Shown one piece after another: positions 2,237-64,000 of a stretch of 64,000 bases of DNA. The notes under the pieces were generated by a model. That model saw only the letters and a list, made by a program, of their open reading frames with translations. It was not told the DNA's origin and made no database searches. The stretch lies in the NCBI RefSeq assembly GCF_022682305.1, contig NZ_CP093528.1, positions 2,121,501 through 2,185,500 of the forward strand, in the 5' to 3' direction. The stretch's first letter is position 1. The number at the start of each line of letters is the position of its first letter. The position numbers and the translations under genes were made by a program. This stretch comes from Shinella zoogloeoides. GTDB taxonomy: Bacteria > Pseudomonadota > Alphaproteobacteria > Rhizobiales > Rhizobiaceae.

Positions 2237-2269
2237 TCACAGAACGATAATCAAAGAGAGGAACATAAA

Positions 2270-3286
2270 ATGAAGAAATACCTTGCCGCCACCGCCCTCG
2301 CCCTCTGCTTCGCCACGAGCGCGCAGGCCGCCGGCGAACTCAACATCTACGCCTGGGCCGAATCCATCTCGCCGGACCTCATCGCGAAATTCTCCAAGGA
2401 GAACGACGTGAAGGTGAATGTCGACAGCTTCACCTCCAACGAAGATCTTTTGACCAAGCTGCAGGCCGGCTCCTCCGGCTACGACATCGCCACCCCCTCG
2501 CAGCACTTCCTGCGCGTGATGATCGACCAGGGCATCATCGAGAATTTCGGGGCCAACAAACTGAAGGCCTATGAGAACATCGAGGAGAAATGGCGTAACC
2601 AGTGGTGGGACGAGAAGCAGGAATACTCTATCCCGCTCGCCTACGGCACCGCCGGCTTCGTGGTGAACACGGACCAGTACAAAGGCCCGACCGACAGCTT
2701 CAAGTATTTCTTCGAGCCGGCGGAAGAGCTGAAGGGCAAGATTGCCCTCCTCTCCTATCCCGACGAGGTGATCGGCGCGGCTCAGCTCTATCTCGGCGTC
2801 CCCTTCTGCTCGGAAGACCAGGCGGAGATGAAGAAGGTGCTGGACCTGCTGATGGCGCAGAAGCCGTTCGTCGCCGTCTACTCCTCCGACAATATCGCAA
2901 GCCGCCTCGCCTCCGGCGAGGTCTCGGTGCATTTCTGGTGGGACGGCGACTCCCTTCGCGCCCGCAAGGCCGGCTCGCCGGTCCAGCTCGCCATGACCAA
3001 GGAAGGCCTCGTCGGCTGGATGGACAGCTACGTCATCCCGAAGGGTGCGCCGAACCAGGAGAACGCGGTGAAGTTCATCGAGTTCATGTCGACGCAGGAG
3101 AACGCCACGGAGCAGATGAACTTCTACTCCCATTCCTCGCCGATGAAGGTCATCCAGGACAAGGTCGTCAACACGCGGGAAACGGCGCCCGAACTCTATC
3201 CGGACGTGCCGATCACCTTCTCGCGCACCTGCTCGGCCGCCGCGCAGGACCTGGTGACGCGCGTCTGGACCCAGCTTCTCCAGTAA
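2270..3286 (+). CDS. Periplasmic substrate-binding protein, PotD-like
   Basis: Extracellular solute-binding protein of 338 aa. It begins with a Sec signal peptide (MKKYLAATALALCF, cleavage near AQAA). The mature start GELNIYAWAESISPDLI resembles spermidine/putrescine-binding proteins (family-1 solute-binding fold). An AGAGG-type ribosome site precedes the ATG. It is the last transport gene in the operon. A GC-rich hairpin follows the stop and probably stabilises or partly terminates this mRNA. The ligand cannot be read from sequence; catabolic genes downstream argue for a nitrogenous carbon source rather than free polyamine. Confidence 0.9.
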   Translation: MKKYLAATALALCFATSAQAAGELNIYAWAESISPDLIAKFSKENDVKVNVDSFTSNEDLLTKLQAGSSGYDIATPSQHFLRVMIDQGIIENFGANKLKAYENIEEKWRNQWWDEKQEYSIPLAYGTAGFVVNTDQYKGPTDSFKYFFEPAEELKGKIALLSYPDEVIGAAQLYLGVPFCSEDQAEMKKVLDLLMAQKPFVAVYSSDNIASRLASGEVSVHFWWDGDSLRARKAGSPVQLAMTKEGLVGWMDSYVIPKGAPNQENAVKFIEFMSTQENATEQMNFYSHSSPMKVIQDKVVNTRETAPELYPDVPITFSRTCSAAAQDLVTRVWTQLLQ

Positions 3287-6902: not shown

Positions 6903-7270
<368 letters not shown>

Positions 7271-39098: not shown

Positions 39099-39154
39099 CG
39101 GATTTCCGTCCGTCTCTTTTCGCATTTCAGGGTGATTATCGAATTTTCGGGCAT

Positions 39155-39179
39155 AAAAAAAGGCCCCTTGGAGGAGCCT
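39155..39179 (-). terminator. Attenuator terminator of the ilvBN leader
   Basis: On the minus strand AGGCTCC pairs with GGGGCCT around a TCCAA loop and is followed by seven T, 57 bp before the ilvB start. An intrinsic terminator placed between a leader ORF and the biosynthetic gene is the attenuator of a translation-sensing system. Confidence 0.9.
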
Positions 39180-39185
39180 GCTTAC

Positions 39186-39234
39186 CGCGCATGGGTGCTT
39201 TCGCCGGGTGGTTACACCACCCTGCCCATGCGCG
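39186..39234 (-). promoter_or_regulatory. ilvBN leader RNA structure (pause/competing stems)
   Basis: A 10-bp perfect pairing (CGCGCATGGG at 39225-39234 read on minus, with 39186-39195) encloses a 7-bp hairpin (39206-39222) that overlaps the last leader codons and stop. Ribosome stalling on the valine/isoleucine codons would block this structure and change folding of the downstream terminator. The pairing scheme is read from sequence; the switching model is by analogy with ilv/leu attenuators. Confidence 0.75.
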
Positions 39235-39271
39235 TTCCCACCACAAGAATGATAGCCGTCAGATTTTTCAT
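39212..39271 (-). CDS. ilvBN leader peptide (19 aa)
   Basis: Short ORF encoding MKNLTAIILVVGTRMGRVV. Seven of nineteen residues are Ile, Leu or Val, including IILVV and a terminal VV just before the stop. It ends 33 bp before the attenuator terminator. This is the signature of a branched-chain amino-acid leader peptide: scarcity of charged tRNA-Ile/Val/Leu stalls the ribosome and allows read-through into ilvB. Confidence 0.9.
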   Translation of the reverse strand: MKNLTAIILVVGTRMGRVV

Positions 39272-49728: not shown

Positions 49729-49961
49729 GGTGTCTCCTCTACGGTCACTCGGCGTCCGTCATCATGACGGACCTGCCGCGCCGCCATGTTTTCATGCTGT
49801 AATGGCAAGTCAAGCACGAATGAATGCTCGGTCCGCCGAATACGCGATTGCCACATCGTTCGGTTTTACTTCGCGGTTTTTGCACTTTCTGAAGGAATAG
49901 GACGTAAAGGTGCCCATGCGGCCACGGATGGGTATGCCGCGGGCAACGACGGTGGCGGCAG

Positions 49962-51290
49962 TTGAGACAGGCCGAGGACTATTCGCAGAGATTCTGGCTG
50001 GCCTACGGCATGGCCTGCCTCGCCGTGGCAGGAATGTCGTTCGGCTGGGGCATCGTCTTCGCGCTGCGGCATGCCTGGGCGCTCGTCATCATCGATATCG
50101 CCGTCATCGCCGTCGCCATCATGAGCTTTCTTCTGGCGCGCCGGCGCCGGCTTTCGGCGGCCCTGCTCTTCTCGCAGGCCGCCTTCCTCGCCATCATTCT
50201 CGTGTTCTGCCTCGTCTTCGACGTGCCGAACGGCGTAGCGCCGCGGGTCACGCACCTTTTCCTCCTCGTTCTCGCGCTGCTCGGCTACATCAACTACCAG
50301 CGGGAGCGCTCGCGCCTCCAGTTCACCGTCATCGCACTCTGTCTCCTGGCCTTCGTGGTCTTCGCCAGCACGCATGTTTCCGTACCCTTCGCCCAGCCGA
50401 TCCCGGACGAATTCCGGACCCTGGGCACCTGGATCAATTCGGTCATCGCCATCGCCATGCTCTGCGGCGCGGTCTATGTGATGCGGCTGAAATTCGCCCG
50501 GAACCTGGACATAGCGCGCGATATCAGAAGCGCACTCACAAACCGGGAATTCGAGCTTTTCTACCAGCCGCAGGTGGACGAAGCCGGCGTGGCGACCGGC
50601 GCGGAGGCTCTCCTGCGCCGCAAGCGGCCGGATGGCGGCCATATACCGCCGGCCGCGTTCATTCCCGCCGCCGAGCAGGCCGGCCTGATGCCCGAAATCG
50701 GCGACTGGGTGCTTGGCGAAGCCTGCCGGACCCTTGCCTTCTGGCAGCAGGACGCCGCGACACGCCATCTGAAACTGGCGATCAACGTCAATGCCGACCA
50801 GTTCATGAAGCCGGATTTCGTCGAGACCCTGATGGCGCGGATCGCCGCGCGCGAACTGGACCCGACCCGCCTCAAGCTCGAGCTGACCGAAAGCATGATG
50901 GCCGCCGATATCGATATCGTCGCCGGGAAGATGCGCGCGCTGAGCGCCGCCGGCATCACTATTTCGCTCGACGATTTCGGCACCGGCTATTCCTCGCTCA
51001 GCCACCTGCGCCGCCTGCCGGTCCACGAGATCAAGATCGACCGCTCCTTCGTGCAGGAGGCCCCGGAGAGCAAGCGCAACCGCATCCTCCTGAAAAGCAT
51101 CTTCGACATTGCCGGCATGCTGGAATTCTCGGTCGTCGCGGAAGGCATCGAGACGAAGGAGCAACTGCTGCTGCTGCAATCCTACGGCTGCACCGCCTTC
51201 CAGGGCTACTATTTCGGCCGCCCCGTGCCCTTCGCCGAGTTCCAGAAGCAATGGGCGGGCGAAGCACCGTCGCTGGCCGCAAGCGCCTGA
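49962..51290 (+). CDS. Membrane EAL-domain protein (putative c-di-GMP phosphodiesterase)
   Basis: Protein of about 442 aa. The N-terminal 180 residues hold five or six membrane helices; the C-terminal 250 residues are an EAL domain. Catalytic motifs are intact: AEALLR (EAL), NVNADQF, LELTES, LDDFGTGYSSLSHL (loop 6), IKIDRSFVQ and EGIET. It should hydrolyse c-di-GMP at the membrane. There is no GGDEF partner domain. TTG 49962 is the listed start, but an ATG at 50010 is an alternative since no strong ribosome site is visible. It is the last backbone gene before the ssrA-associated element. Confidence 0.9.
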   Translation: MRQAEDYSQRFWLAYGMACLAVAGMSFGWGIVFALRHAWALVIIDIAVIAVAIMSFLLARRRRLSAALLFSQAAFLAIILVFCLVFDVPNGVAPRVTHLFLLVLALLGYINYQRERSRLQFTVIALCLLAFVVFASTHVSVPFAQPIPDEFRTLGTWINSVIAIAMLCGAVYVMRLKFARNLDIARDIRSALTNREFELFYQPQVDEAGVATGAEALLRRKRPDGGHIPPAAFIPAAEQAGLMPEIGDWVLGEACRTLAFWQQDAATRHLKLAINVNADQFMKPDFVETLMARIAARELDPTRLKLELTESMMAADIDIVAGKMRALSAAGITISLDDFGTGYSSLSHLRRLPVHEIKIDRSFVQEAPESKRNRILLKSIFDIAGMLEFSVVAEGIETKEQLLLLQSYGCTAFQGYYFGRPVPFAEFQKQWAGEAPSLAASA

Positions 51291-51322
51291 TCCCGCCTTG
51301 AAAAAATCCCTGTCACAAAGCC

Positions 51323-51351
51323 CTTTCCATGCGCGGCGGGAATGCCTATAT
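51323..51351 (+). promoter_or_regulatory. Native ssrA promoter (stranded)
   Basis: CTTTCC (51323-51328), 17-bp spacer, CTATAT (51346-51351). This matches the alphaproteobacterial sigma-70 pattern CTTGAC-17-CTATAT. It is immediately upstream of the truncated acceptor-piece sequence and has the same spacing as the promoter at 58211-58239, so I take it as the original ssrA promoter left behind by the insertion. Confidence 0.75.
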
Positions 51352-51356
51352 GTGGA

Positions 51357-51420
51357 GTGCTGCTTCGGCAGCTATGGCAATAAACGGGCGGTGTAATAAA
51401 CCCATTGGACCCGGGGGCGG
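51357..51420 (+). ncRNA. Truncated tmRNA acceptor-piece remnant
   Basis: This stretch aligns, with one single-base gap, to the first 65 or so bases of the acceptor piece at 58246-58310: hairpin GCTGC-ttcg-GCAGC versus GCTCC-gcaa-GGAG, then shared CTATGGC, TAAAC, AATA and GGAC-CGG blocks. A small stem changes in compensating fashion (GGG/CCC here, CCT/AGG there). The remnant breaks off in the T-arm region and lacks the CCA end, so it cannot make functional tmRNA alone. Confidence 0.78.
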
Positions 51421-51445
51421 TATATGAGTTCCGCCGACACCGGGT
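51409..51445. repeat. Nested palindrome at the left ssrA junction
   Basis: ACCCGG (51409-51414) pairs with CCGGGT (51440-51445), and inside GGCGG (51416-51420) pairs with CCGCC (51431-51435) around a 10-base loop. It begins within the acceptor remnant and ends in element sequence. It may be the recombination core or a recombinase-binding structure. Confidence 0.5.
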
Positions 51446-51578
51446 TGACTTGCCAGCAACATCTAAATTCTCTTTGTCGATTTCCGCTTATCCATAAGCT
51501 GCGCGCAGTCGGTCGAGTTGCGCCAAACGCCCTTAACCCTTCTTTGTATCCTCGGGGGTCCGGGGGCAGACAGCCCCC

Positions 51579-52009
51579 GCCTTGAGCCCGTGCCTTGAGC
51601 CCGTGCCTTGAGCCCGTGCCTTGAGCCCGTGCCTTGAGCCCGTGCCTTGAGCCCGTGCCTTGAGCCCGTGCCTTGAGCCCGTGCCTTGAGCCCGTGCCTT
51701 GAGCCCGTGCCTTGAGCCCGTGCCTTGAGCCCGTGCCTTGAGCCCGTGCCTTGAGCCCGTGCCTTGAGCCCGTGCCTTGAGCCCGTGTGCCTTGAGCCCG
51801 TGCCTTGAGCCCGTGCCTTGAGCCCGTGCCTTGAGCCCGTGCCTTGAGCCCGTGCCTTGAGCCCGTGCCTTGAGCCCGTGCCTTGAGCCCGTGCCTTGAG
51901 CCCGTGCCTTGAGCCCGTGCCTTGAGCCCGTGCCTTGAGCCCGTGCCTTGAGCCCGTGCCTTGAGCCCGTGCCTTGAGCCCGTGCCTTGAGCCCGTGCCT
52001 TGAGCCCGT
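51579..52009. repeat. Tandem array of 33 copies of a 13-bp unit
   Basis: Unit GCCTTGAGCCCGT repeated head to tail over 431 bp with essentially no substitutions. One copy, near 51788, has an extra GT, so the array is 33 x 13 + 2. Perfect identity implies recent expansion or active homogenisation. Because 13 is not a multiple of 3, all three minus-strand frames read the same 13-residue repeat; I do not consider it coding. Confidence 0.97.
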
Positions 52010-52109
52010 GCCGTGCCGTGCCGTGCCGTGCCGTGCCGTGCCGTGCCGTGCCGTGCCGTGCCGTGCCGTGCCGTGCCGTGCCGTGCCGTGCCGTGCCGTG
52101 CCGTGCCGT
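52010..52109. repeat. Tandem array of 20 copies of a 5-bp unit
   Basis: Directly abutting the 13-bp array is GCCGT repeated exactly 20 times (100 bp). GCCGT equals the 13-mer with its inner TTGAGCCC removed, so the short array probably arose from a deleted copy of the long unit and then expanded. Confidence 0.97.
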
Positions 52110-52654
52110 TAACCCTTTCACGGTCATCGCATCCCTGCTGTACCGTACGAACATACTTACACAATAATCAGAGTAAGTCAATGTTATTATTATATTTTTC
52201 CGCCAAACCTCACCAGGAAACTCAAAATCACTTCGTTTTTCGGAGCAAAGCCCGGCCAACGCAACCAAACCTTTAATTAGACACTTCTGCTCAGTCTTAT
52301 GAAATAGTTCACCAACTCGACTCGGAAAAATTGACAAAACTGGAGATGAGCGACGTCAAGCGGTCAGCCCCTTGAATAAAAAAATATTTCAGGGACGATC
52401 ACGAAAAATATCTACATATATACCTTGAATACTACTTCAAACTGGAACCTTAAATTAATTTAATCAAAGACTCCACACCAAAATCGAAAGCTCGATATCA
52501 AAATAAAAGACACCAACAAAAAGAATTTCAAAAACCACGTTAAGTATTATTATTCATACATTTAATTTTTCCCAAATCAAATAAAATTATATTTTCTTCC
52601 ATTAAATTTATAATTGCCGTATCGAATTTATAAATTTTCATTGAGGCGAGATGG

Positions 52655-54034
52655 ATGGCTTCAGTACATATTCCACGCCGCGCGGAACAAAAAGGCATTC
52701 GCAGGTTCGGCGATAAAACACCGTACATACTGGATTCCGGCGATCGTTACCTTGAGGGAGTTAATCACTACATCCACGATCGAATTCGCGGAAAGATTAA
52801 CCCTGGAGACCTCTCCCGTCCAAAGTCCATGCTTCGCAAGCTTTCTGCAACCACGGCCCGAGCGATCGTCTCCGCGATCTGCGACGGCACCAATTTTTTG
52901 GAAAGCGAGATTTCTCACCCATCGCTTGGGTCGCTGAACTGGCTTGATGCACGAGCGTGGATGTTCAATGAGCTCTATGAGCAAGCAATGGCAAAAGGGT
53001 TTTGGACGCAATCGTTCTGGAAGCAAGGGATCGCCGAACCACTCGCCTATAACCACACCATTAAAGTCCGGGTTGCGGAAAACCTGCGGTGTGGCAGATG
53101 GCTCGAACTTAATGGCTACATAAAGAACTTTAGTGACGAGTCTGACGCTGGTGACGTACCGCGTCACATCATGGAGGCAAACAGAAGCCTCGCGACTGTC
53201 AAGGCTAACCTCGCCCCGCAAAGCGCTTGCCAGATTGGGAAGCGACAGAATCCTGCGCACGGCATACCTCCGCCTATCGAAGAAATTTTTGCGTTCATCC
53301 AGGCACTGCCAACAGAAACGTCCAAGCTTGTTTCTATATTACTCTACGATACTGGTATGCGCGCAGAAGAAGTGGTGGAGAATACAAAAGTTCCATCTTC
53401 TTGGGCCGGCGCGCCACGGAAAACCGACGAGAGCATCGGTTTCTTGCCCGATGTAGACGCATTCTGGGCTGACACATCCTCTTCTCTCGCGGAATGCAAA
53501 TGGAAGATAGTCGGGAAAGGGAACAAAATTCGATTTGTACGCGCCTCCCCGCGGACCCTTCGCGCAATGTGGAGGTACTGGGCCACGACTAGAAAGAAAC
53601 TCATTCAACGGTGTCGATCTTCGAGGGACAGGACTACCGATACACTTTTTTTGAACTGCCGCGGCAAGCCGCACAGCTACCACAATCAGTTCTCCGCCAT
53701 GAGATCGACAAATATCCTTCTTGGCCGCGATTATAGGATAACGCAGCATATCTTACGGCACGCCCATGCATGCACTTACATGGAGACAGCAATCTGCGCC
53801 GAAATGAAGTCCAGAAACATCGATATTAACAAAGCCAGCTACGAGGATTTCATGAGGATCGGAGAAGGAGTCCAACTCCTTCTTATGAACGATCTCGGCC
53901 ATGAATTGATGGCGACAACCGAGAAGTACCTGAAAATGCTCGCACATGGAAAAATCGGGCTTCGGTATCAGATGGCGTTCAACGACAGACTCGACGAATT
54001 AGGCGATTTCGACAACTTCAGCGAGGCTGAGTAA
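52655..54034 (+). CDS. Tyrosine recombinase 1 of the ssrA element (catalytically complete)
   Basis: Site-specific recombinase of 459 aa. All catalytic positions are present: Arg236 (YDTGMRAEEV), Lys288 (VGKGNK), His365-x-x-Arg368 (QHILRHAH), His416 (DLGHEL) and Tyr425 (TTEKYLKM). The N-terminal half should bind core DNA. GAGG lies 8 bp before the ATG. It is first in a four-gene operon, followed after 3 bp by recombinase 2. Large multi-recombinase operons recall Tn554 TnpA/B/C and other trio elements; the exact family is not assigned. Confidence 0.88.
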   Translation: MASVHIPRRAEQKGIRRFGDKTPYILDSGDRYLEGVNHYIHDRIRGKINPGDLSRPKSMLRKLSATTARAIVSAICDGTNFLESEISHPSLGSLNWLDARAWMFNELYEQAMAKGFWTQSFWKQGIAEPLAYNHTIKVRVAENLRCGRWLELNGYIKNFSDESDAGDVPRHIMEANRSLATVKANLAPQSACQIGKRQNPAHGIPPPIEEIFAFIQALPTETSKLVSILLYDTGMRAEEVVENTKVPSSWAGAPRKTDESIGFLPDVDAFWADTSSSLAECKWKIVGKGNKIRFVRASPRTLRAMWRYWATTRKKLIQRCRSSRDRTTDTLFLNCRGKPHSYHNQFSAMRSTNILLGRDYRITQHILRHAHACTYMETAICAEMKSRNIDINKASYEDFMRIGEGVQLLLMNDLGHELMATTEKYLKMLAHGKIGLRYQMAFNDRLDELGDFDNFSEAE

Positions 54035-54037
54035 CTG

Positions 54038-55882
54038 ATGTCAAAGCGAACGATCAAGGGTGTGCTTACAAATGCGACCAGATCGACCGTTCAAGCGCTC
54101 GCCGACTTTCCAGATCATGCACCACCAAGTACTACTCAAGATATTCTGGGATTTGATCCGTCTAAGTTGGGAGATTGGCCCCTGTTGTTAAACAGCGTTC
54201 CCCTGATACGGCGTGAGTTTTTTAGGCAAGCCCGGCCAGCAACGATAAATAAGATTATAAAAAATCTCAGAAAAATCGCGCAATTCGTCATAATTTATTC
54301 AAATGAGTCGGGAAGACTAGTTACCCACGTTAGAAATATTGACGGAAATTTCAGACTTGCTTTCCATAAGCGCTTCCGCGAAGACGTTGACACTGTTCGA
54401 GTGTTCAATCGGCTGGTCAAGTGTCTTGGAGGGGAGAAAGAACAGGAAGTGCCGACGCTGCCTACCGCACCCAATACGGCGGTTCGCGAGCTACTTGAAT
54501 CTAGAGAGATTCAACGAGTTCTGAAGATCGCCAAGAGCGAAGTTCTCATGCTACTCCGCCGGCAGGCCGAAGTGGCTGCAGCCCTCGACAGGCCATTCGA
54601 TTTCACTCTCCGAGGCAACTGGCAGTTACTTGAGAAGCGCGTTTGGTCAGTGAAAAATGTGCTTCAATTGCAAATGCTGCCGTGGAACGAATTGAATCGT
54701 CGTTACCCGATGGTCGTCAAAGGACTGGAAAAACATTTTGGCGCTGAGGGATTTACGCCAGACGGCACCATCGTACGGCGCCCGGGGTTAAACGGCCACC
54801 TCCTATATTTCTATCCTGAAGGTAGAGACCTAGCGCCATTTATAATAATAGTAATGCTTCGAACTGGGTTCAATCTATCTGCCCTGGGCACCATGAAAGC
54901 AGAACAGTGGTATGCGCCATATCCGTTTAGCTCTCCACCCGGATCGAAGGACGGGATATGCTACATTATTGCGCAAAAGCATCGAGGAAATCGAAGAAAG
55001 GGCGAAAGCCCGAGAACTGTCCGAGCTATTTCGCTGATGACACCTTATTCTCACGCTTATCAACTTCTCAAATTTGTTGAGAATGCTACTAAGCAGACAC
55101 GGTTAGAAATCAAAAGGCAAATAGACTTACTGAGAGATAAAATCTCTTTATCGTCGAAAGAAAAAAGCACACTTAAATACTACGAGACAATAAAGGACCA
55201 TGTCTTCGTGTACCGCAGTGAAGGCAAGTTCTATTCGATTGTGAATGAGAAAGGAGACCCTCGGCGTTTCCTCTCCGATGCCCTTGAGCACTACGGCATA
55301 TCACGCGCGAGCAGGTCGCTCAGAGATGCCCACCTCAACTCCGGGCTGGTGTCTCCCGGCGGGAGCTTCGCCGTCATTAAATTGCTGGCCTCCCACAGCG
55401 AGAGAATTGTCGCGTATGAACGAAGAAAGCAAACACTGGAGCGAGCTGAGACGACTTTAATCGCAGTGTTTGAGAAAAGTATCGAACTAATAAAACTTCA
55501 GCGATACTCAATCACGGCTTTGAAGCGCGAGTTAAGTCACCAGGGCTTTTCGCTCGCTCAGTCGGCAAGTGTTCTCGATCCGGGAACGACCACGGTGTGG
55601 GGAAACAGATGCGCAGACCCCACTTTCCCTCCACCCGAGTTTCGCGATGGGGCAACCACTGGACGACCTTGTGTAGGCCAGAGATGCATTGACGGCTGTC
55701 CTTTCGCACGCTGGTTTCCTGACGCAGCCGGGCATCTCCAGGCAATTCGCGCCCAGCTTCAACGTGAAATTTCCGCGCTCGGCTATGAGGCCACAATGGG
55801 CAGTTCCCACCACCGCCGTCTTAGGGCCGTGGATCATATTCTGCTTGAGCTTTCCGAACATGCAGAACGGCAACCCTCATGA
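54038..55882 (+). CDS. Tyrosine recombinase-like protein 2 (degenerate active site)
   Basis: Protein of 614 aa with a tyrosine-recombinase-like C-terminal half. The first catalytic Arg is replaced by Asn279 (LRTGFNLSAL). The box II His appears as Arg426 before Arg429 (RSLRDAH). Lys314, His453 (LASHSER) and Tyr460 (VAYERR) remain. The last 90 residues carry a cysteine cluster, C525, C545, C550 and C554 (TGRPCVGQRCIDGCPFARWF), a possible zinc site. It lies 3 bp after recombinase 1 and overlaps recombinase 3 by 4 bp. Probably an obligate partner rather than an independent enzyme. Confidence 0.82.
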   Translation: MSKRTIKGVLTNATRSTVQALADFPDHAPPSTTQDILGFDPSKLGDWPLLLNSVPLIRREFFRQARPATINKIIKNLRKIAQFVIIYSNESGRLVTHVRNIDGNFRLAFHKRFREDVDTVRVFNRLVKCLGGEKEQEVPTLPTAPNTAVRELLESREIQRVLKIAKSEVLMLLRRQAEVAAALDRPFDFTLRGNWQLLEKRVWSVKNVLQLQMLPWNELNRRYPMVVKGLEKHFGAEGFTPDGTIVRRPGLNGHLLYFYPEGRDLAPFIIIVMLRTGFNLSALGTMKAEQWYAPYPFSSPPGSKDGICYIIAQKHRGNRRKGESPRTVRAISLMTPYSHAYQLLKFVENATKQTRLEIKRQIDLLRDKISLSSKEKSTLKYYETIKDHVFVYRSEGKFYSIVNEKGDPRRFLSDALEHYGISRASRSLRDAHLNSGLVSPGGSFAVIKLLASHSERIVAYERRKQTLERAETTLIAVFEKSIELIKLQRYSITALKRELSHQGFSLAQSASVLDPGTTTVWGNRCADPTFPPPEFRDGATTGRPCVGQRCIDGCPFARWFPDAAGHLQAIRAQLQREISALGYEATMGSSHHRRLRAVDHILLELSEHAERQPS

Positions 55883-57726
55883 AAGCGAGTGTATCGGCGG
55901 CCGTAGAGCAACTGGAGTGGGTCGTCGCGATCAAGGTGAAGGAGGGCAAGCGCCCTCCCTACCTGCCAGATATGCGTTTCACGCCCCTTAGTTTCTACCG
56001 GGACAATGTTGTTCTGTTTCCTCCAGATGCAACGACGGCGGGCTCGAAGAGAAAGGCAGTCGTAAACCTTCTAGGCGCCGGACGTTTCAAGGCGCGCAAG
56101 GTGGCCGGGCTGCGGAAAGACATAGATACCGCTTTGTTGGAAGCACTGAAGCAAGCAACCGTTTGCTACATTTTCACCCGCGAAATCCTGCCACTTCGAC
56201 GGAAGAAGCTATCGGCGGTTGGAACTATCCATCGAGAGATCATCTCCGTGCGCCGTTTGCTGCTGGCATTTCGTGAGGTTGGCGTGTCATGTCTGTCACG
56301 TGTCACACCTCATCGACTACGCGAAGCACTGACATTTGCAGCGAATGGAAACTCTTCTGATTACCATTTTGAAGTCTTCCTTGATCTCGTCGAAATGAGC
56401 CGCACCGGAATGCTTCTACCGGCGCTCCCCGATTATGACTGGGAGCATGAAGTCGACGATTCACCGAAAGACTCGACCGCTGCAAAGGGAAAGCAGGCTC
56501 TATCAGAATCCGAAATCGACGCGCTTCTACGGCCATCGCTTGAGATTTTCGAGCATAGATCGGAGATAATCGACGCTATACGCGATATCCACCAATACGA
56601 GGTGAGTCCACTCGACGTAAAGGCTTCACTTTCACAAGTTATACCCGTTCTTCATGAGATAGAGCCGAGAAATATACTATATTCTTTAGTGGTCCTCATC
56701 ATGATTGCCTGTACGAATTTGATCGGCTTTCATCTAGGGCTGCGGCCTTCTGAATTATTATCGCTTCGACGGAATTTCATCAGCTCGCGCTCCGGAAGTC
56801 CCGCGTTGGATGAAGAAAAAATCTCTCTGAAATTCACACGCTCCAAGGGGGTGCCGCGGCCCGTGGTGAGGACGATAAGAGTTCACCCTTTTCTAAAGCT
56901 CGTAGCGGAGACACTCGAAGATATATTGGACGCTACCGGCGAAACGTCGGACCATATTTTCCCGTCACCCAGCAAACATGAGGAAATGTCTCTCGCCGAT
57001 CTAAGCAATAGAATGCGCAAGTTTTGCCGGCTGATAAAAGCTCCGGCGAAAGTGACAGGTTATAGCTGGCGAAAAACCGTCATCGACCTGCTCGTCAGAT
57101 TGATGACGGACGGTCTGACGATCGCCGCGGTAATCATGGACCACATCGACAAGAACGAAGCCGCCGGGTATGCGCTCTCCTCCCCGCATTTAGCCGATGA
57201 TTTGCAAACCGGCGTTCGCAAAGTCTGGTCGAACCGGCTTGCTGCAATTTTCGAACAGGCGACCGGACCGGAGACGCTCGGAGGGGCGGCCGGAATACGG
57301 CTTCAGCAATTTCTCGCTGAACATACTACCGCGACGGATTTGCAGATGAGCCAGGAAGAATTCGTAGCTGACGCAATGGCACAGCACATTTATCCGATCA
57401 AAGTCGGACCCGGAAAATTTTGTGTCAAACCGCCATTTTCTCGCGGAAGCTGTTCGTTGATCTCTAAAGATGTGTTGGCCGATTCGGCCAACTGCAAAGC
57501 AGGATGCGAGCACCATCTACAGATGCCTGAGCGCCGACAAATAGTAGAAGAGAACATTCACAACCTGAAGCTCTTTTTAAATTCTACGGAAAATTCGCCC
57601 ATGCAAAAGATTTACGCAGTCAACCAAGTTCGCGAACAGATTGAAGCCTGGCCGGACCTCCGAGGAGTGCTGGACGAGGCCATCGCATCCGACTCCTCTA
57701 TCGAAAACTGGTTCGAAGATGCCTAA
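55879..57726 (+). CDS. Tyrosine recombinase-like protein 3
   Basis: Protein of 615 aa. Recombinase positions: Arg289 (HLGLRPSELLSL), Lys323 (TRSKGVPRP), Tyr395-x-x-Arg398 (GYSWRKT, Tyr in place of His), His422 (IMDHID) and Tyr431 (AAGYALS). As in recombinase 2, a cysteine/histidine cluster follows (C515, C525, C539, C543, H545, H546), so the two share architecture. The start overlaps recombinase 2 by 4 bp; the end overlaps the coiled-coil gene by 8 bp. Likely works in a heteromeric complex. Confidence 0.83.
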   Translation: MKASVSAAVEQLEWVVAIKVKEGKRPPYLPDMRFTPLSFYRDNVVLFPPDATTAGSKRKAVVNLLGAGRFKARKVAGLRKDIDTALLEALKQATVCYIFTREILPLRRKKLSAVGTIHREIISVRRLLLAFREVGVSCLSRVTPHRLREALTFAANGNSSDYHFEVFLDLVEMSRTGMLLPALPDYDWEHEVDDSPKDSTAAKGKQALSESEIDALLRPSLEIFEHRSEIIDAIRDIHQYEVSPLDVKASLSQVIPVLHEIEPRNILYSLVVLIMIACTNLIGFHLGLRPSELLSLRRNFISSRSGSPALDEEKISLKFTRSKGVPRPVVRTIRVHPFLKLVAETLEDILDATGETSDHIFPSPSKHEEMSLADLSNRMRKFCRLIKAPAKVTGYSWRKTVIDLLVRLMTDGLTIAAVIMDHIDKNEAAGYALSSPHLADDLQTGVRKVWSNRLAAIFEQATGPETLGGAAGIRLQQFLAEHTTATDLQMSQEEFVADAMAQHIYPIKVGPGKFCVKPPFSRGSCSLISKDVLADSANCKAGCEHHLQMPERRQIVEENIHNLKLFLNSTENSPMQKIYAVNQVREQIEAWPDLRGVLDEAIASDSSIENWFEDA

Positions 57727-58207
57727 AAATATTCCCGAACAGCTTCAGCTATCTGCTCAGAGTAGGACAGCCGCTTCGCTTAATCGTCTGCATAAAGCCC
57801 AGCAGGCGATAAAAGTCGATCTGAAGACCGGAAAACTCGCGCGGACACGGAAGTCTATTGACCGCGCATATGTGCTACGGCGGGCCGGCTTGAACCCCGA
57901 TTTCCTTAAAGGACCTAAGCACGCCGTTGCGACTCGCGAGGCAGTTCAGAGTTTCGTTGACTCCGTGAACAGGCATCTCACGAAAAGGGACGACGATCCC
58001 CACCTGAAGATCGCAATGCTTCGGGAGGAACTTGCCGAGTGGCAGGCAAAGTACCAACGAATAGCCGACCAAATCAATGACTGGGCGATCCGCCTCAGGA
58101 GCCTGCAACGAAAGAACCGGGAACTGAAAATTCAGCTCGATCAAATAGGCAGTCAATCAGGAACCACGGTGGTTTCGCTGAAGGGTCGCGGTCGCGACCT
58201 AAGATAG
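57719..58207 (+). CDS. Coiled-coil accessory protein of the recombinase operon
   Basis: Basic protein of 162 aa; the second half is a long coiled coil (LREELAEWQAKYQRIADQIN, then LRSLQRKNRELKIQLDQIGS). The ATG at 57719 overlaps the recombinase 3 stop by 8 bp. A small coiled-coil gene after recombinases is reminiscent of tnpC of Tn554, which affects transposition efficiency and orientation; homology is suspected, not shown. Its stop is 3 bp before the -35 box of the second ssrA promoter, so the operon ends where the rebuilt tmRNA gene begins. Confidence 0.75.
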   Translation: MPKNIPEQLQLSAQSRTAASLNRLHKAQQAIKVDLKTGKLARTRKSIDRAYVLRRAGLNPDFLKGPKHAVATREAVQSFVDSVNRHLTKRDDDPHLKIAMLREELAEWQAKYQRIADQINDWAIRLRSLQRKNRELKIQLDQIGSQSGTTVVSLKGRGRDLR

Positions 58208-58210
58208 GCT

Positions 58211-58239
58211 CTTGTCTTTCGCAAGATCGGTGCCTATGT
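58211..58239 (+). promoter_or_regulatory. Element-borne ssrA promoter
   Basis: CTTGTC (58211-58216), exactly 17 bp, then CTATGT (58234-58239). Spacing and position relative to the acceptor-piece hairpin are the same as in the stranded native promoter at 51323. It starts 4 bp after the coiled-coil gene and would drive the reconstituted tmRNA gene. Confidence 0.7.
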
Positions 58240-58245
58240 ATGAGA

Positions 58246-58575
58246 TGCTCCGCAAGGAGACTATGGCGCTAAACCTTATGTGCAATAGGTGAACAGGACG
58301 CGGCTTCGACGCCGCCGCCTCCACCAAAAACCGCTCGGTAGGAGCGGCTTTTGATGGGGGCGACATGGGATCGACTGGCACTGAAAGACATGAGCTGTGC
58401 TCGGCATGATACCGCCGTTATCGGGTCAAAATAGTAGTTGCAAACGACAACTATGCGGAAGCTCGTCTCGCTGCTTAATCGCGGTGTGACACTTCAAATC
58501 AAGTCCTAAGGGGTCGCACTCTTAGGCGGGGTTCGGAGGTACCTGGCAACAGAAACCTCCACCTTCACGCCCTTC
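58246..58575 (+). ncRNA. ssrA: Permuted two-piece tmRNA (ssrA)
   Basis: Circularly permuted tmRNA gene of alphaproteobacterial type, for ribosome rescue. Acceptor piece about 58246-58326: T-arm GCGGC-TTCGAC-GCCGC and 3' end CGCCTCCACCA. Intervening segment 58327-58355 contains a hairpin CCGCTC/GAGCGG and is removed in maturation. The coding piece starts at 58356 with GGGGGCGA, pairing with CGCCTCC and leaving the G3-U70 wobble that alanyl-tRNA synthetase needs. The tag reading frame 58440-58478 encodes ANDNYAEARLAA then TAA. The 3' end (about 58575) is estimated from the last stem (GGAGGT/ACCTCC). Confidence 0.95.
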
Positions 58576-58771
58576 GCTGCATGTTCATTCCAATGGTCTC
58601 CCGATCGCGGGATCGAAACCCCTGCTCTCGATGTTTACCCAACGGGCAAAGCGGTCTCACAGTGCCTGCGGCCGCTAAATCTCTTCCAGCGAAGAGCTAG
58701 ACGGCACACCGCGAGATCGCCCCAATCGCACCGTCCGAACGACGAGTGAATTTGCTAAAACCTGGCCCTTT
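58576..58771. other. Region between ssrA and the methyltransferase gene
   Basis: No gene is supported. A tRNA-like patch on the minus strand (58600-58665) has a GGGG-TTTCGAT-CCC loop and an ACCA-like end but does not fold to a full cloverleaf. It may be a decayed tRNA fragment. Confidence 0.3.
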
Positions 58772-60325
58772 TCATCGTTCGGTATTCAGAGCGTCTTCGG
58801 CGGGAATCGCCCGCTTACGCCTTGCCATGTAGTCCCGCAACGCCTCGTCGGTCCCCTCGTCGAGTTTGGGCTCTTCATAGTCCCTAAGTAGCTTTCGAGC
58901 ATACTGTAGTGCGCGTTCGGTTATTTCGACACTGCCTTCTGCCTGCCATTGCTCGATGGAGTCGTTGTTAAATAGCTTCGGCATGTAGAAGGCCCGCTGG
59001 AAGTTGGCCTGCGTATGCGGGTGACCGAGGAAATGGCCGCCGGGGCCAATATCGCGAACGGCTTGCATCGCTTCGTCGAAGTCATCCCACCGGACTCCCT
59101 CCGCCATCCTGTAGCCCATGGCGCACATGTCTGCATCGACTACGAACTTGGCGACCGAACACTGCATACCCGCCTCGTTCCATCCCGCGGAATGCCAGAT
59201 AAAGTTCGCGCCCGCGTGGAGCACGGCGTTCAAAGTCATCGCGCTCTCGTACCCTGATTGCGCGTCGAACGTTTTCGCGCCACCGAGGAGGTTCGATGTC
59301 CGCCACGGAATGCCGTAATGTCTGGCCATCTGCCCAATCATGAAGTTCATCAGGCTGATTTCGGGGGTGCCCGCCATCGGCGCTCCTGACTTCATGGAGA
59401 CGGTCGACAGAAAGTGACCGTAGATCGCGGGAGCTCCCTTTCGAACCACCTGCGTGTAGGAAAGGGCGGCAAGCGCCTCGGCGTTCAACTGGGCGACCGT
59501 GGGAGCGGTAGACGCGGGAGTGTTGGCGCCGCCGAGCGCGAAAGGCGAGCATAGGACAGGCTGGTTTCTACGGCTAAACGCGCGGATCGCCGCAAGCATG
59601 GTTTCGTCCCAGACAAGCGGGGAGTTTCCGTTGGCATTGCCGGTAATGACGGGCGTGGTCTCCATCACGTCGCGGCTGAACAGGATTTCGCACATGTCGA
59701 GCACGTCGTCGGCGTTCCGGCCCGTCGTCGCCATGCCCATGAACATCTTGTCGGAGTATTTGATCGAGGTGTACGCGATCTCCAAGTGCCGATGGCTCAC
59801 CTTGACGTCCATCGGCTCGATGATGTGGTGAGAGGTGCAGTGAAGGGCGGGCGACATCTGCGTCAGCTTCACGAGCATCTGGAGGTCGGCAAGGCTGGCC
59901 CAGCGTCTCTCGTTATCGAGCCCGCGTATATACGGCGCGCCTCCCATGGGCGCGAAGATCGAATAGCTGCCTCCGAAATCCAGATTCCGGGCGGGGTTTC
60001 TGGCACGGTACTGCCAGCCGGAAGGGATCGTCGAAATCAACTGGCGAACCAGCCCGCGGTCGAGATGAACGCGTTCGCCCCGTACGTCGGCCCCGACCGC
60101 CCTCCAGTCCGATAACGCGCGCTCATCCCTGAAGACAATCCCGACGTCCTCAAGGATCGACATTGATGCGTCGTCAATCCGGGCGACCTGCGCTTCGTCC
60201 ATGACGTCGCATGTCGGTATTCCTCGCTTGAGCGAAGGAAGCATCTCGAGATCGGGCGCGCAGCGCAATGCCCGCCGAGCGTCACGCCCGCCGCTTCGAA
60301 CAACCTTTGCGCCTTCGATACTCAC
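58772..60325 (-). CDS. Trimethylamine methyltransferase (MttB) family protein, non-pyrrolysine
   Basis: MttB-superfamily protein of 517 aa. Start GTG 60325 has GGGAGGGG just upstream; the frame extends farther without a ribosome site. Recognised segments: IDDASMSILEDVGIVFRDER, YSIFAPMGGAPYIRGLDN, ITGNANGNSPLVWDETML, and the C-terminal DIGPGGHFLGHPHTQANF. There is no in-frame amber codon, so it belongs to the non-pyrrolysine group that demethylates betaines such as glycine betaine, proline betaine or carnitine onto a corrinoid protein. No corrinoid protein gene is in view. It is divergent from the epimerase and ABC genes. Confidence 0.87.
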   Translation of the reverse strand: MSIEGAKVVRSGGRDARRALRCAPDLEMLPSLKRGIPTCDVMDEAQVARIDDASMSILEDVGIVFRDERALSDWRAVGADVRGERVHLDRGLVRQLISTIPSGWQYRARNPARNLDFGGSYSIFAPMGGAPYIRGLDNERRWASLADLQMLVKLTQMSPALHCTSHHIIEPMDVKVSHRHLEIAYTSIKYSDKMFMGMATTGRNADDVLDMCEILFSRDVMETTPVITGNANGNSPLVWDETMLAAIRAFSRRNQPVLCSPFALGGANTPASTAPTVAQLNAEALAALSYTQVVRKGAPAIYGHFLSTVSMKSGAPMAGTPEISLMNFMIGQMARHYGIPWRTSNLLGGAKTFDAQSGYESAMTLNAVLHAGANFIWHSAGWNEAGMQCSVAKFVVDADMCAMGYRMAEGVRWDDFDEAMQAVRDIGPGGHFLGHPHTQANFQRAFYMPKLFNNDSIEQWQAEGSVEITERALQYARKLLRDYEEPKLDEGTDEALRDYMARRKRAIPAEDALNTER

Positions 60326-60673
60326 ACTCCCCTCCCTGACCCCGTCTTGCCTTTCCGATCGCGGCTTTCGAGCGTCCACATCTCGGTCAGGAAAGCATCT
60401 CACAGCCACTTGAGAACTTGGAATTCGAAATACTTTGGCTTTGCATGCGTTTTCCTCATGCGAAGTGTCAGCGTGCGCTACGGATGTGCGTCGTCCGGCA
60501 CAAAAGATGGCCTCATGCGCAATTAAATGCTGGGCCAAGGTTGACATGGGTGGGCTTCAAAATATTATACGATCCAATCTTTTCATATAAAATCTCTTCC
60601 GACCACATGTCGTTAGGGGCAGCCGAACTGCTGTCCCGACACGCGAGACTCTTTGCGTTCAAGGGAAGACGGA
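60326..60673. promoter_or_regulatory. Divergent promoter region of the betaine cluster
   Basis: 348 bp between the divergent methyltransferase and enolase-family genes without a supported ORF. An AT-rich stretch at 60555-60600 is the most promoter-like part. No clear operator palindrome was found by eye. Confidence 0.4.
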
Positions 60674-61780
60674 ATGAAGATCACGGGCATAAACGTATAT
60701 GCAGTCGATCTCCCGGTCGTGGGAGGCGAGTACCGTATGGCCTCGACCACGAACCGCGTCCTCCATTCGACAGTGGTGGAACTGGAAACCGATCGGGGGT
60801 TTAGCGGCTATGGCGAGGTGTGTCCCGCCGGGAGCGTTTACCAGCCTCAGCACGCCCTCGGCGCACGGGCGGCCCTCCAGGAGATGTGCCCTTCCCTGCT
60901 GGGTTTGAATCCCCTTCACACGGAAAATGTCGCGCGGGCTATGGATGCGACCCTGAACGGGTCCCGTTACGCCAAGGCGGCAGTCGACATCGCCCTCTGG
61001 GACATTGCCGGAAAGGCCTACGGAAAGCGGGTGTGCGACCTTCTTGGCGGCGCTGTTCGCGAGTCCGTCCCATCCTACTATTCGACAACGGTAATGTCTC
61101 CGGAAGACACCGCAGCGCTGGTCGCCGAGAAACAGGCCGAGGGCTACCCGCGAATTCAGACGAAGGTGGGCGGCCGATCTCTCGACGAGGATATCGCGAC
61201 GATCCGCAAGGTCGGCGAGATCATCCGCCCTGATGTCAAGTGGGCGGTGGATGTCAACCGCGGCTGGTCTACGCGCGATGCGATCACCGCCTCGCGACTG
61301 ACCGAAAGCCTTCCCTTCGTTCTGGAGCAGCCCTGCAATTCCTACGAAGAAATCGCGAACATCCGCGCGCAGGTTCGCCATCCGATTTACCTCGACGAAT
61401 CCACCGAGCACCTCGGCGTGATCCTCAAAGCGGCGGTGCTGGGAACGGCCGACGGCTTCGGCCTCAAAGTCACGAGGCTGGGCGGACTGAGCACCATGCG
61501 AACGGTCCGCGATGTCTGTCATTTCGCCCGCCTCCCGTTCAGCTGCGACGACGCGTGGGGCGGCGACATCATCGCCGCGGCCTGCGTTCATCTTGCCGCA
61601 ACCGTGCACCCTTCCTTGTGCGAAGGCGCCTGGATAGCCGCTCCGTACATCGAAGGACACTACGACGAGAGCGCGGGCGTGAGAATCAAAGACGGATGGA
61701 TCGACGTGCCGAAAGGCCCCGGCCTCGGGATCGCGCCGAACATCGCGGCGCTGGGAAAACCGATCCAGCGTCACGGCTGA
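60674..61780 (+). CDS. Enolase-superfamily racemase/epimerase (betaine epimerase-like)
   Basis: Mandelate racemase/muconate lactonizing-type enzyme of 368 aa. Catalytic-barrel marks: RIQTKVGG (Lys at strand 2), WAVDVNRGW (metal Asp), LEQPC (metal Glu), YLDESTEH (metal Asp/Glu) and FGLKVTRLGG (second Lys). A two-lysine active site fits 1,1-proton transfer, as in proline-betaine or hydroxyproline-betaine 2-epimerase (HpbD). ATG 60674 follows GGGAAGACGG. Context (MttB, betaine-binding protein, FAD oxidase) supports a betaine substrate, by inference. Confidence 0.85.
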   Translation: MKITGINVYAVDLPVVGGEYRMASTTNRVLHSTVVELETDRGFSGYGEVCPAGSVYQPQHALGARAALQEMCPSLLGLNPLHTENVARAMDATLNGSRYAKAAVDIALWDIAGKAYGKRVCDLLGGAVRESVPSYYSTTVMSPEDTAALVAEKQAEGYPRIQTKVGGRSLDEDIATIRKVGEIIRPDVKWAVDVNRGWSTRDAITASRLTESLPFVLEQPCNSYEEIANIRAQVRHPIYLDESTEHLGVILKAAVLGTADGFGLKVTRLGGLSTMRTVRDVCHFARLPFSCDDAWGGDIIAAACVHLAATVHPSLCEGAWIAAPYIEGHYDESAGVRIKDGWIDVPKGPGLGIAPNIAALGKPIQRHG

Positions 61781-61816
61781 GAGAGTGTGTGTTCAACATA
61801 GAAAAGGGGAACCAAA

Positions 61817-62818
61817 ATGAAGAACACGTTGCTTGCCATGTCCTTGCTTTCCTCGATGGCGTGCATGACGACCACGGCGCTTGCGGCCGATTGCGGCAGC
61901 ATCACCATCGCAGACGTCAATTCCCAGAGCTCGGACTTCCTGTCGAGCCTCGACAAGTACATTCTCAATACGGGGTACGGTTGCAACGCCGACGTGGCGA
62001 TCGGCGGCACAGTTCCATCGATCACGTCTCTCGTCGAAAAGGGCAACCCCAATGTCGTTTCCGAGGCGTGGGTCGACCTGGTCGGGGAAGTGGTGCAGAA
62101 GGGAATCGACGAAAACCGGATATCGCTGGCCGCGCCGGTATTCTCCGAAGGTGGCATTCAGGGATGGTTCATTCCGAAATACCTCGCGGAAGCCCATCCC
62201 GATATCAAGACAATTCCCGACGCGCTGAAGCATCCCGAACTTTTCCCCAATGCGGAAAATCCGTCGCGCGGGGCGATCTACCAGGGGCCGCAGGGCTGGG
62301 GTTCGACCATCGTCACCGGCCAGCTTTACAAGGCGTATAAGGCCGCGGATGCCGGATTCGACATCGTCGATACGGGTTCCGCCGCGGGATTGGACGGCTC
62401 GATCGCGAAGGCATACGAGCGCAAGGAAGGCTGGCTCGGCGTATACTGGGCGCCGACCGCGCTGCTGGCGAAGTACCCGCTGGTCAAGCTAGACGCCGGT
62501 GCTCCGGTCGACGAGGCCGAGTGGAAGCGGTGCATGACCACCCCGGACTGCCCCGACCCGAAGATCAGCGAATGGCCGAAGGACCGCGTCTATACGCTCG
62601 TGTCGACCGAACTGGCCGCGAACACGAAGCCCGAAGTCATCCAATACCTGAAGACCCGTTCGTTCACGAACGACCAGATCGGCGAGTTGCTTCTCTGGAT
62701 GACCGAGAACCAAGCGACGGGCGAGCAAGGCGTGAACCATTTCCTGGAGACCAATCCCGAGCTCTGGCGGACCTGGGTGACGGCGGAAGCAGCCAAGAAC
62801 ATCGAGGCCAGCCTTTAG
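61817..62818 (+). CDS. ABC transporter substrate-binding protein, glycine betaine/proline type
   Basis: Periplasmic binding protein of 333 aa, OpuAC/ProX-like. A signal peptide (MKNTLLAMSLLSSMACMTTT, cleavage at ALAA) precedes SITIADVNSQSSDFLSSLDK. The family-typical WVDLVGE, EGGIQGWFIPKYL and tryptophan-rich ligand box residues are visible; a two-cysteine segment (CMTTPDCPDPK) occurs near residue 236. It lies 36 bp after the epimerase gene. No permease or ATPase is in the window; they probably follow to the right. Confidence 0.9.
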   Translation: MKNTLLAMSLLSSMACMTTTALAADCGSITIADVNSQSSDFLSSLDKYILNTGYGCNADVAIGGTVPSITSLVEKGNPNVVSEAWVDLVGEVVQKGIDENRISLAAPVFSEGGIQGWFIPKYLAEAHPDIKTIPDALKHPELFPNAENPSRGAIYQGPQGWGSTIVTGQLYKAYKAADAGFDIVDTGSAAGLDGSIAKAYERKEGWLGVYWAPTALLAKYPLVKLDAGAPVDEAEWKRCMTTPDCPDPKISEWPKDRVYTLVSTELAANTKPEVIQYLKTRSFTNDQIGELLLWMTENQATGEQGVNHFLETNPELWRTWVTAEAAKNIEASL

Positions 62819-62922
62819 GCTGATCGCGGCTTGCAGGACGGCCGCTTGTCCCGGACGCATCGACGGGACACGGCGGCCGTTCGGCAGATTCCAGGGCCAG
62901 GATTTTGGAAACGGACAGGAAA

Positions 62923-64000
62923 TGGACAACGAATTCGACGTGCTAGTTATCGGCGGCGGGATAATCGGCGCTTCAGCCGCACACCACACGGCCTCGGCCG
63001 GATACAAGACCCTGCTTGTCGAGAAAGGAGACTACGGGTCCGGAACGACCAGCCGAACATCTCGCATGCACAACTGCGGCTTCATGTATTTCGTCGACGC
63101 GCATAACTCCCTTCTCGACCTCCTTCGCCATCCTTTTGCCCTTCTCAAATCCCTCGAACTCGCAAGGCGGACGATGCGGGAGCGCGCGGCGTTTGTCCGT
63201 TCGTCCCCGGACAGGGTCCGAAAGGTGGAGTTCTTGATTCCGCTCGAGCCGCAAAGGGGCATCACGAAATCCAAGATGTGGATCGCGTCGACATTCCTTC
63301 GGCTCTCGGGGGGATACGCGGTGTCTTTGGAACCCAGGTTTCTCGGCAGGGCCGCTGCCAATTCGGCTCCCCTGATCAGCATGATGAGCGGCTCGTCGGA
63401 GGTACATGGCGCCTTCCGCTTTGCGGAATACCAATACCGGTGGCCGGAGCGGATCGTTGTAGACACGATCATGAAAGCGCGTGACGCCGGCCTCGACGCC
63501 CGGAACTACACCAAGGTCGTGGCCCTGGAACACAAGAGGGACCGTTGGGTGGCGACGCTCGAACAGGACGGACGACAGCACAACGTGTTTTCCAACGCCA
63601 TCATCAACGCCGCCGGCGCGTGGGTCGATCATGTGACGAACCTCGTGCCGACCCCGGGCCCGTTCCTGAACACGGGCGCCAAAGGCGTAAACCTCCTGAT
63701 CCGCCTGCCTCAAGAGGCCCGTGGATTTGGCATGGAGACAGTGACCTCCCGCGGCGCCCCGTTCTATGTCATGCCGTGGGGCGATTGCCATTACGTCGGA
63801 CCGGCCGACAGCCCGGCGGATGCCGAGCAAACGCCCTTTCGGGCGACCGACGCCGAAATCGGCCAAATCCTTTCGGACGCGAACGAGATGTTCCCGACGC
63901 TGAACCTGTCGGCGGCGGATGTCCGCTATAGCTGGGCGGGGGTGCGGCCACGGACCGCGGCCGAGGGGAAGCTACTGGGATCGCTCGACGTACGGGAACA
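62923..64000 (+). CDS. FAD-dependent oxidoreductase, GlpD/sarcosine oxidase-like (3' partial)
   Basis: The frame is open from ATG 62923 to the window edge (359 codons). The N-terminus has the FAD-binding motif DVLVIGGGIIGASAAHHTAS and LLVEKGDYGSGTTSRTSRM, as in glycerol-3-phosphate dehydrogenase and glycine/sarcosine oxidases. Later INAAGAWVDHVTNL (second FAD contact) and SWAGVRPRT are of GlpD type. In this cluster it may oxidise an N-methyl amino acid or amine; that is inference. Weak ribosome site AGGAA before the ATG. Confidence 0.87.

Follow-up and report, generated by a model that had tools for sequence, protein, structure and literature searches.

The stretch analysed here, which we call the window (64,000 nucleotides of Shinella zoogloeoides contig NZ_CP093528.1; C1:2121501-2185500 of a 5.14-Mb genome), contains the left end of an 85.3-kb island that resembles the GInt islands and that has very probably entered the T arm of the host's transfer-messenger RNA (tmRNA) gene, ssrA, bringing with it a full tmRNA gene that replaces the host's own. 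At the level of sequence this is supported by the split of the native gene, the repeats around the insert, the unoccupied site of relatives, a replacement gene that is complete and whose two pieces pair with each other, its association with gin-like recombinase genes in other genera, and the products of recombination between the two genes. We propose that site-specific recombination at GGGGCGGTA parts the native promoter and the 5' part of the acceptor piece from the rest of ssrA, a split that should disable the native gene, and that the island brings, right behind its ginD-like gene, a full two-piece tmRNA gene with its own promoter-like site. The product, with an element-specific tRNA-like domain, no target in its T arm and a tag of the host's class, would stand in for the native tmRNA. 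We infer that it is transcribed, processed, charged and used with SmpB, and that the four gin-like proteins of the island are active in recombination; the cell's ribosome rescue would presumably depend on the island copy. The core of this proposal, that a recombinase element entered the acceptor part of native ssrA, parted the promoter from the gene and brings a promoter-like site and a tmRNA, had already been put forward in an earlier, sequence-only reading of the window, and it stands.

The left native piece (window 51320-51422) comprises the promoter of the host's permuted ssrA and the beginning of that gene. From 51320 onward it matches the alpha_tmRNA family RF01849 with 49.0 bits (E 6.8e-13 in a 401-base search), just short of the family's gathering score of 50; in a genome-wide search it scores only 20.4 bits (E 8.7e-4). 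It ends abruptly after GGACCCGGGGGCGGTA, and a BLAST comparison with the locus of a relative (L010) puts the break at 51422. Positions 1-1603 of the relative correspond to window 49821-51422 and positions 1595-3066 to 136719-138171 (coordinates beyond 64000 continue to the right of the window), and the 9-bp overlap between the two is the core GGGGCGGTA. The insert is therefore bounded by 9-bp direct repeats and runs from 51414 to 136718, a length of 85,305 bp and not the roughly 6.9 kb first supposed; within the 154 kb read the exact core is present only at 51414 and 136719. The native 3' remainder is found at C1:2258145-2258485, outside the window (window coordinate 136645 on; 179.1 bits with RF01849 in the whole-genome search), 85.3 kb from the left piece and 78 kb to the right of the island's tmRNA. 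It has no native promoter or 5' acceptor part and is not restored. The left junction thus retains the promoter-like site and the right junction the coding piece together with the acceptor's 3' end, and neither half should be able to yield a complete acceptor piece. By RF01849 the whole host genome has one full tmRNA, one left native fragment and one right native fragment; its SmpB gene is present in a single copy. An unbroken native T arm, GGACCCGGGGGCGGTACCCGGCGCCTCCACCA, is present in all 18 same-genus loci read, eight of which were aligned (the genus search covered 20 relatives, and the count excludes G416, which is split, and G415, which was not read). This is the T arm of the left piece, and the comparison with element-free relatives accordingly upholds the view that the left piece is the native one.

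The island's tmRNA is a complete match to RF01849 at 58208-58563 (253.6 bits, E 1.6e-72, model positions 1-355), with the permuted layout in full: an acceptor piece upstream of the coding piece, a CCA end and a tag frame. The joining of a divergent acceptor piece to a complete ssrA at 58.2 kb, and the equal 17-base spacing of its promoter-like site and that of the left native piece, had both been recognized beforehand from the letters. ARAGORN reported no tmRNA in the window, despite the high RF01849 score of this gene. The native and island tmRNAs differ on both sides of the CCA, and because the T arm of the latter lacks the target core, the replacement should not itself be a target. The two genes can also be told apart by base pairing between acceptor and coding pieces, for which we scored 18 pairs; these come from the structure line of RF01849 and were placed by motif and offset. 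In the window the element-type (E) acceptor pairs with the E coding piece at 17/18 positions and native with native at 17/18, and either acceptor with the coding piece of the other type reaches 9/18. The same holds in the related loci described below: E with E gives 16-18 pairs in 12/12 loci, E acceptor with native coding 4-12 in 10/10 (9-12 without Rhizobium redzepovicii, whose internally deleted native half gives the lowest score, 4), native with native 16-17 in 4/4, and native acceptor with E coding 9-10 in 4/4. The suggestion of the sequence-only reading that the element rebuilds the native gene therefore had to be abandoned; the 58.2-kb ssrA is a full second gene, and its interpretation as the rebuilt native one was rejected in view of the native remainder at 136719 and the 9/18 pairing.

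Table 1. Features of the split ssrA locus and of the left part of the island, in window coordinates
Feature	Position	Strand	Remarks
Native ssrA promoter-like site, CTTTCC-17-CTATAT	51323..51351	+	Same region in relatives; now severed from its gene
5' part of native ssrA acceptor piece, truncated in the T arm	51357..51422	+	RF01849, alignment of relatives, BLAST
attL core GGGGCGGTA	51414..51422	+	Other copy at 136719-136727 (C1:2258219-2258227), beyond the window
Left terminal sequence TATATGAGTT	51421..51430	+	First two bases lie within the core; the right end carries its inverted repeat, AACTCATATA
ginA-like tyrosine recombinase, 459 aa	52655..54034	+	PF00589
ginB-like protein, 614 aa	54038..55882	+	No Pfam match; aligns with GinB-position proteins of related loci
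ginC-like protein, 615 aa	55879..57726	+	PF00589 E 1.7e-4, below cut-off
ginD-like small protein, about 162 aa	57719..58207	+	No Pfam match; start codon picked from sequence
Element tmRNA promoter-like site, CTTGTC-17-CTATGT	58211..58239	+	Begins three bases past the ginD stop
Element tmRNA acceptor piece with CCA end	58246..58326	+	5' end approximate; T arm GCGGC-TTCGAC-GCCGC, no attB core
Element tmRNA coding piece	58356..58563	+
Tag reading frame ANDNYAEARLAA and stop	58440..58478	+	Peptide identical to that of the native gene
Start of cargo, about 78 kb in all	58567..64000, on to 136718	.	MTTB, MR/MLE enzyme, betaine-binding protein, others

Related loci are known from several searches. 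Among 21 Shinella genomes (including that of the window) the element tmRNA has one further copy, 94% identical, in S. zoogloeoides PQ7 (G416); the insert there is about 6.3 kb long and at the same site, with the native right half about 100 bp past the tmRNA, and the whole insert contains two ginD-like open reading frames (ORFs) and no match to ginA, ginB or ginC. A search of 394 genomes of the family gave matches in 386, and 20 loci were fetched, mostly from the top of the list; by their acceptors 13 are E-type and seven native-type. Eight genomes gave two matches each, of which five were followed (G000, G888, G918, G961 and G1117) and three were not (G828, G837 and G1069). The window, G1117, the family search and a pattern scan of contigs (10 named loci, four of them identical to G416, G961, G888 and G1155) together provide the 12 loci that we call E1-type. 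Both junctions are visible in four of these (the window, S. zoogloeoides G416, Metarhizobium album and G1117), and a native half is recognisable in ten; none was found in Rhizobium mesosinicum and Rhizobium sp. RYN_488. The larger gin genes lie upstream of the tmRNA in 6/12 loci, the window included: M. album has ginA-C there, with most of its cargo across the operon's other side, Ferirhizobium litorale has a partial ginA near a contig end followed by ginB and ginC, Neorhizobium tomejilense and AFS086932 have ginC and a partial ginB at the locus edge, and AFS032198 has ginC. G1117 has only the tail of ginC and no ginA or ginB. A ginD-like gene precedes the tmRNA in 9/12 loci (in AFS032198 by ORF position and alignment only), and the DNA read from Neorhizobium vignae, R. 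redzepovicii (whose contig begins at the tmRNA) and RYN_488 had no gin match. The recurrence of the order gin genes, tmRNA, native half in other assemblies disposes of an assembly artefact. A search of phages with the element tmRNA found no relatives, and a plasmid search gave tmRNA-like matches in nine records, each over less than 80% of the query. Partial matches (57-70% of the query) are present on the plasmid-filed records NZ_CP140867.1, NZ_AP014705.1 and NZ_CP016463.1, listed with Rhizobium, Methylobacterium and Bosea, respectively.

The two kinds of tmRNA appear to exclude one another. The E-type T arm was found in 15/394 family genomes and 10/109 genera (the window's genome included), with no match to a reversed control pattern. 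An intact native T arm (≤2 mismatches) is present in 0/16 E genomes (these 15 plus G416, with two assemblies 81-85% complete) and in 6/6 congeners, which were chosen by hand, cover six of the 10 genera and include at least one (G1038) known beforehand to be native-type. A second T-arm form, GTTTCGA, occurs in 10 of the 15 (G886, G934, G993, G1086, G1044, G852, G1052, G283, G266 and G918). Five genomes with this form (genus g470) have the tmRNA between thyA and sspB, in G266 and G283 sspB is further downstream, and G886 has neither gene in the stretch read; the G1052 locus was not read. G918 has an extra partial copy, with two family-search matches, and the other nine have one match each. The GTTTCGA copies may be older replacements or a native variant.

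The E copies appear to be chimeric. Over the first 86 nt of the coding piece, those of the other eight genomes that have both halves match the window's at 91-94% identity, and each of the nine is 72-85% identical to the native copy of its own genome. The 3' parts behave differently: those of Metarhizobium, Ferirhizobium, the two Neorhizobium and G1117 share 85-100% identity with the native copy of the same genome (N. vignae, whose compared native half is itself recombinant, accounts for the 100%) and only 78-80% with the E copy of the window, and those of S. zoogloeoides G416, AFS032198 and AFS086932 are 97-99% identical to the window's. In all nine genomes for which both tags were read, the E and native copies share the tag class, and in seven of the nine the peptide is identical; in M. 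album and F. litorale the two tags are one residue apart. From this split in identity and the matching tag classes it seems that the tRNA-like domain moves with the element and that the mRNA-like part was acquired from hosts belonging to either tag class. Several loci look like the outcome of such exchange. N. vignae (L094, other strand, 1141-2245) has the E copy followed by two native halves, the first with an E-type 3' part and the second with a native 3' end, and the spacer region after the E copy is duplicated (160/160 bases identical); this layout is the duplication expected of unequal crossing over between 3' parts. In R. mesosinicum an E copy with a native-type 3' end runs into the sspB region, no attR or native half was found at the locus, and ginD, matched in two frames, looks broken; it is apparently the deletion counterpart of the N. 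vignae duplication. R. redzepovicii has kept the E copy, its promoter region lost to the contig start, and a native half without the tag region. Such a pattern would be expected if selection maintained the E copy but not the native half. On a broader proposition we are evenly divided, namely that the gin element family has made ssrA a cassette site, with element-specific tRNA-like domains that pair poorly with the host's and have no target, and with an mRNA domain re-matched to the host tag class by recombination; repeated capture, decay and homologous deletion would have left several Rhizobiaceae (R. mesosinicum, Rhizobium sp. RYN_488, perhaps the ten GTTTCGA genomes) with an element-derived tmRNA as their sole one.

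The gin-like genes of the window are four co-directed ORFs, adjacent or overlapping, that begin 1.2 kb from attL and point at the tmRNA. The GinA-like protein matches PF00589 (E 1.1e-08) and has, as read from the alignment, the residues R, HxxRH, H and Y; NCBIfam recombinase matches of GinA are far below the family cut-offs, and an AlphaFold model of GinB is poor (mean pLDDT 35.6). Among nine Gin proteins of the relatives, PF00589 was found in one, the GinA of M. album. The Gin proteins of the ssrA loci are about 25-40% identical to the window's (tblastn), and the tmRNAs 81-94% identical. The element ends are inverted repeats, TATATGAGTT in the window and ATAGGTGAGCATG in G1117. Near the island's left end (window 51579-52109) are tandem arrays of 33 copies of the 13-bp unit GCCTTGAGCCCGT (99% alike) and then 21 copies of CCGTG, followed by an AT-rich stretch (34.6% G+C) up to ginA. 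At the other end, the last 319 bp before attR have 53.6% G+C and 2-kb windows of the cargo about 53-64%; a short AT-rich 3' end is a GInt trait.

Pfam scans covered 32 of 67 selected cargo ORFs. Many of those scanned are catabolic, with matches to glycine betaine binding protein, MTTB, FAD oxidoreductases, ETF, Rieske oxygenase, MutE/MutL and fumarase; two transposase sets are present, and no second tyrosine recombinase was found among the 32. The region from 58772 to 64000 and on to 136718 carries a betaine/methylamine-type set (MTTB, OpuAC, DAO, GMC oxidoreductases, ETF, Rieske oxygenase) and a second set is made up of MutE, MutL and fumarase. Elsewhere in the window, on the minus strand, are a partial tRNA-like match at 7080-7136 (36.1 bits) and the small RNA Atu_C8 at 39145-39266 (113.1 bits).

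Three other explanations of this arrangement deserve consideration. The most serious of them, to which we give a minor though real chance, is that the island is composite, a small gin-tmRNA element to which a separate insertion has added about 78 kb between the tmRNA and attR. Seven other loci (M. album, F. litorale, N. tomejilense, AFS086932, AFS032198, S. zoogloeoides and G1117) have the tmRNA about 90-170 bp from attR, and the window has in that place 78 kb with two transposase sets among its scanned ORFs; but there are only two exact cores in the 154 kb, the right end of the island resembles the element end of AFS086932 and is an inverted repeat of the island's own left end, and no second tyrosine recombinase was seen in the 30 cargo ORFs scanned for this purpose among the 67 selected. 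That the tmRNA is chance cargo, a second tmRNA picked up along the way with no functional part in the element, is improbable. GInts do bear varied cargo starting at ginD (PMC5385486) and the 3' part of the tmRNA is host-type, yet the same tRNA-like domain recurs behind ginD, in several genera, at this one ssrA site, despite Gin identities of only about 25-40%, and the tmRNA is kept where ginABC were not found (S. zoogloeoides G416, whole insert) or where only a ginC tail is left (G1117). Least probable is integration of the classical type, in which the element carries a replacement ssrA end and so rebuilds the native gene. A promoter-like site and an acceptor piece do arrive with the element, but the native remainder at 136719 has neither native promoter nor 5' acceptor part, the 58.2-kb gene is unlike the native one before and after the CCA, its acceptor pairs with native coding sequence at just 9/18 positions, and the native 3' half is at the distal end of this insert and, in nine further loci, close to the tmRNA.

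Some observations count against the reading that we prefer, replacement of the host tmRNA by that of the island. In other loci the tmRNA is at the right end of the element and in the window it is 78 kb away, and the island may be composite. The 3' part of the window's E copy is nearer to the native gene of G1102, which belongs to another genus, than to that of its own host, and a tree of coding pieces (46 rows) does not put all E copies in one clade; we would explain the tree by 3' parts acquired from hosts, and a mixed origin of the E copies is possible. Searches with GinC in 397 genomes of the order and with GinA in 385 of the class found the window alone, 15 stretches from a GinC pattern scan of genome contigs yielded no confirmed case, and neither protein had relatives in plasmids; either the window's gin lineage is rare or distant relatives escaped the GinC and GinA searches. 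The label GInt-like is given by layout, with Gin proteins compared among ssrA loci alone and most of them without a Pfam match.

The GInt islands have a four-gene operon encoding three large recombinase-like proteins and a small one, short direct repeats, and cargo that starts from ginD (PMC5385486). Further GInt traits are tyrosine recombinase domains in GinA, GinB and GinC, a need for all four genes in excision and integration, and a circular form. The window's island is like them in its four co-directed gin-like genes, short direct repeats, cargo from ginD and diverged gin lineages with a common target (PMC5385486); its operon is at one end and the cargo begins at the ginD stop. Its core is an exact 9-bp repeat, slightly below the 10-17 nt of the imperfect repeats reported for GInt. 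It differs in its target, ssrA, where those reported are an ABC transporter gene, ssb and others, and in the whole replacement of the disrupted target gene, of which no description was seen in PMC5385486, a paper whose main text makes no mention of tmRNA, ssrA or tRNA. No case of whole-ssrA replacement was seen in the parts consulted of the tmRNA surveys PMC11915505 and PMC4131195 or of the papers on GInt or related elements PMC10214605 and PMC10121019. A literature search, mostly of titles and abstract openings, likewise gave no replacement of a whole ssrA by an island, though earlier notice is possible.

Known islands use a fragment to patch the tRNA or tmRNA gene that they enter; this one breaks a housekeeping RNA gene that is nearly universal and brings a complete, diverged stand-in. 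If this is correct, a core quality-control RNA has been swapped horizontally while its tag remains host-class, by a route that would allow one-step replacement of a core RNA gene, and the natural pairs of native and element tmRNAs would be test material for the contributions of the tRNA-like and mRNA-like domains. Islands in tRNA and tmRNA genes restore their target with a carried fragment (Islander, PMC4383910), and excision of CP4-57 inactivates the E. coli tmRNA (PMC10107115). As in the window, tyrosine-recombinase islands split ssrA, and crossover in the T-arm region is common (PMC4383910, PMC10107115). Those islands leave a restored target and a displaced fragment, whereas here the native gene stays broken, with its halves at the two ends of the island, and a whole divergent permuted gene is supplied from within. 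Islands specific for dusA also enter the 5' part of their target and supply element sequence with a putative promoter, but they replace only the 5' end of the same gene (PMC4482086). Phage Melnitz, like the window's island, is a mobile replicon with a complete permuted two-piece tmRNA; for that phage no integrase or integration was found, and its tmRNA is no stand-in for a split host gene, as that of the island appears to be (PMC9004378).

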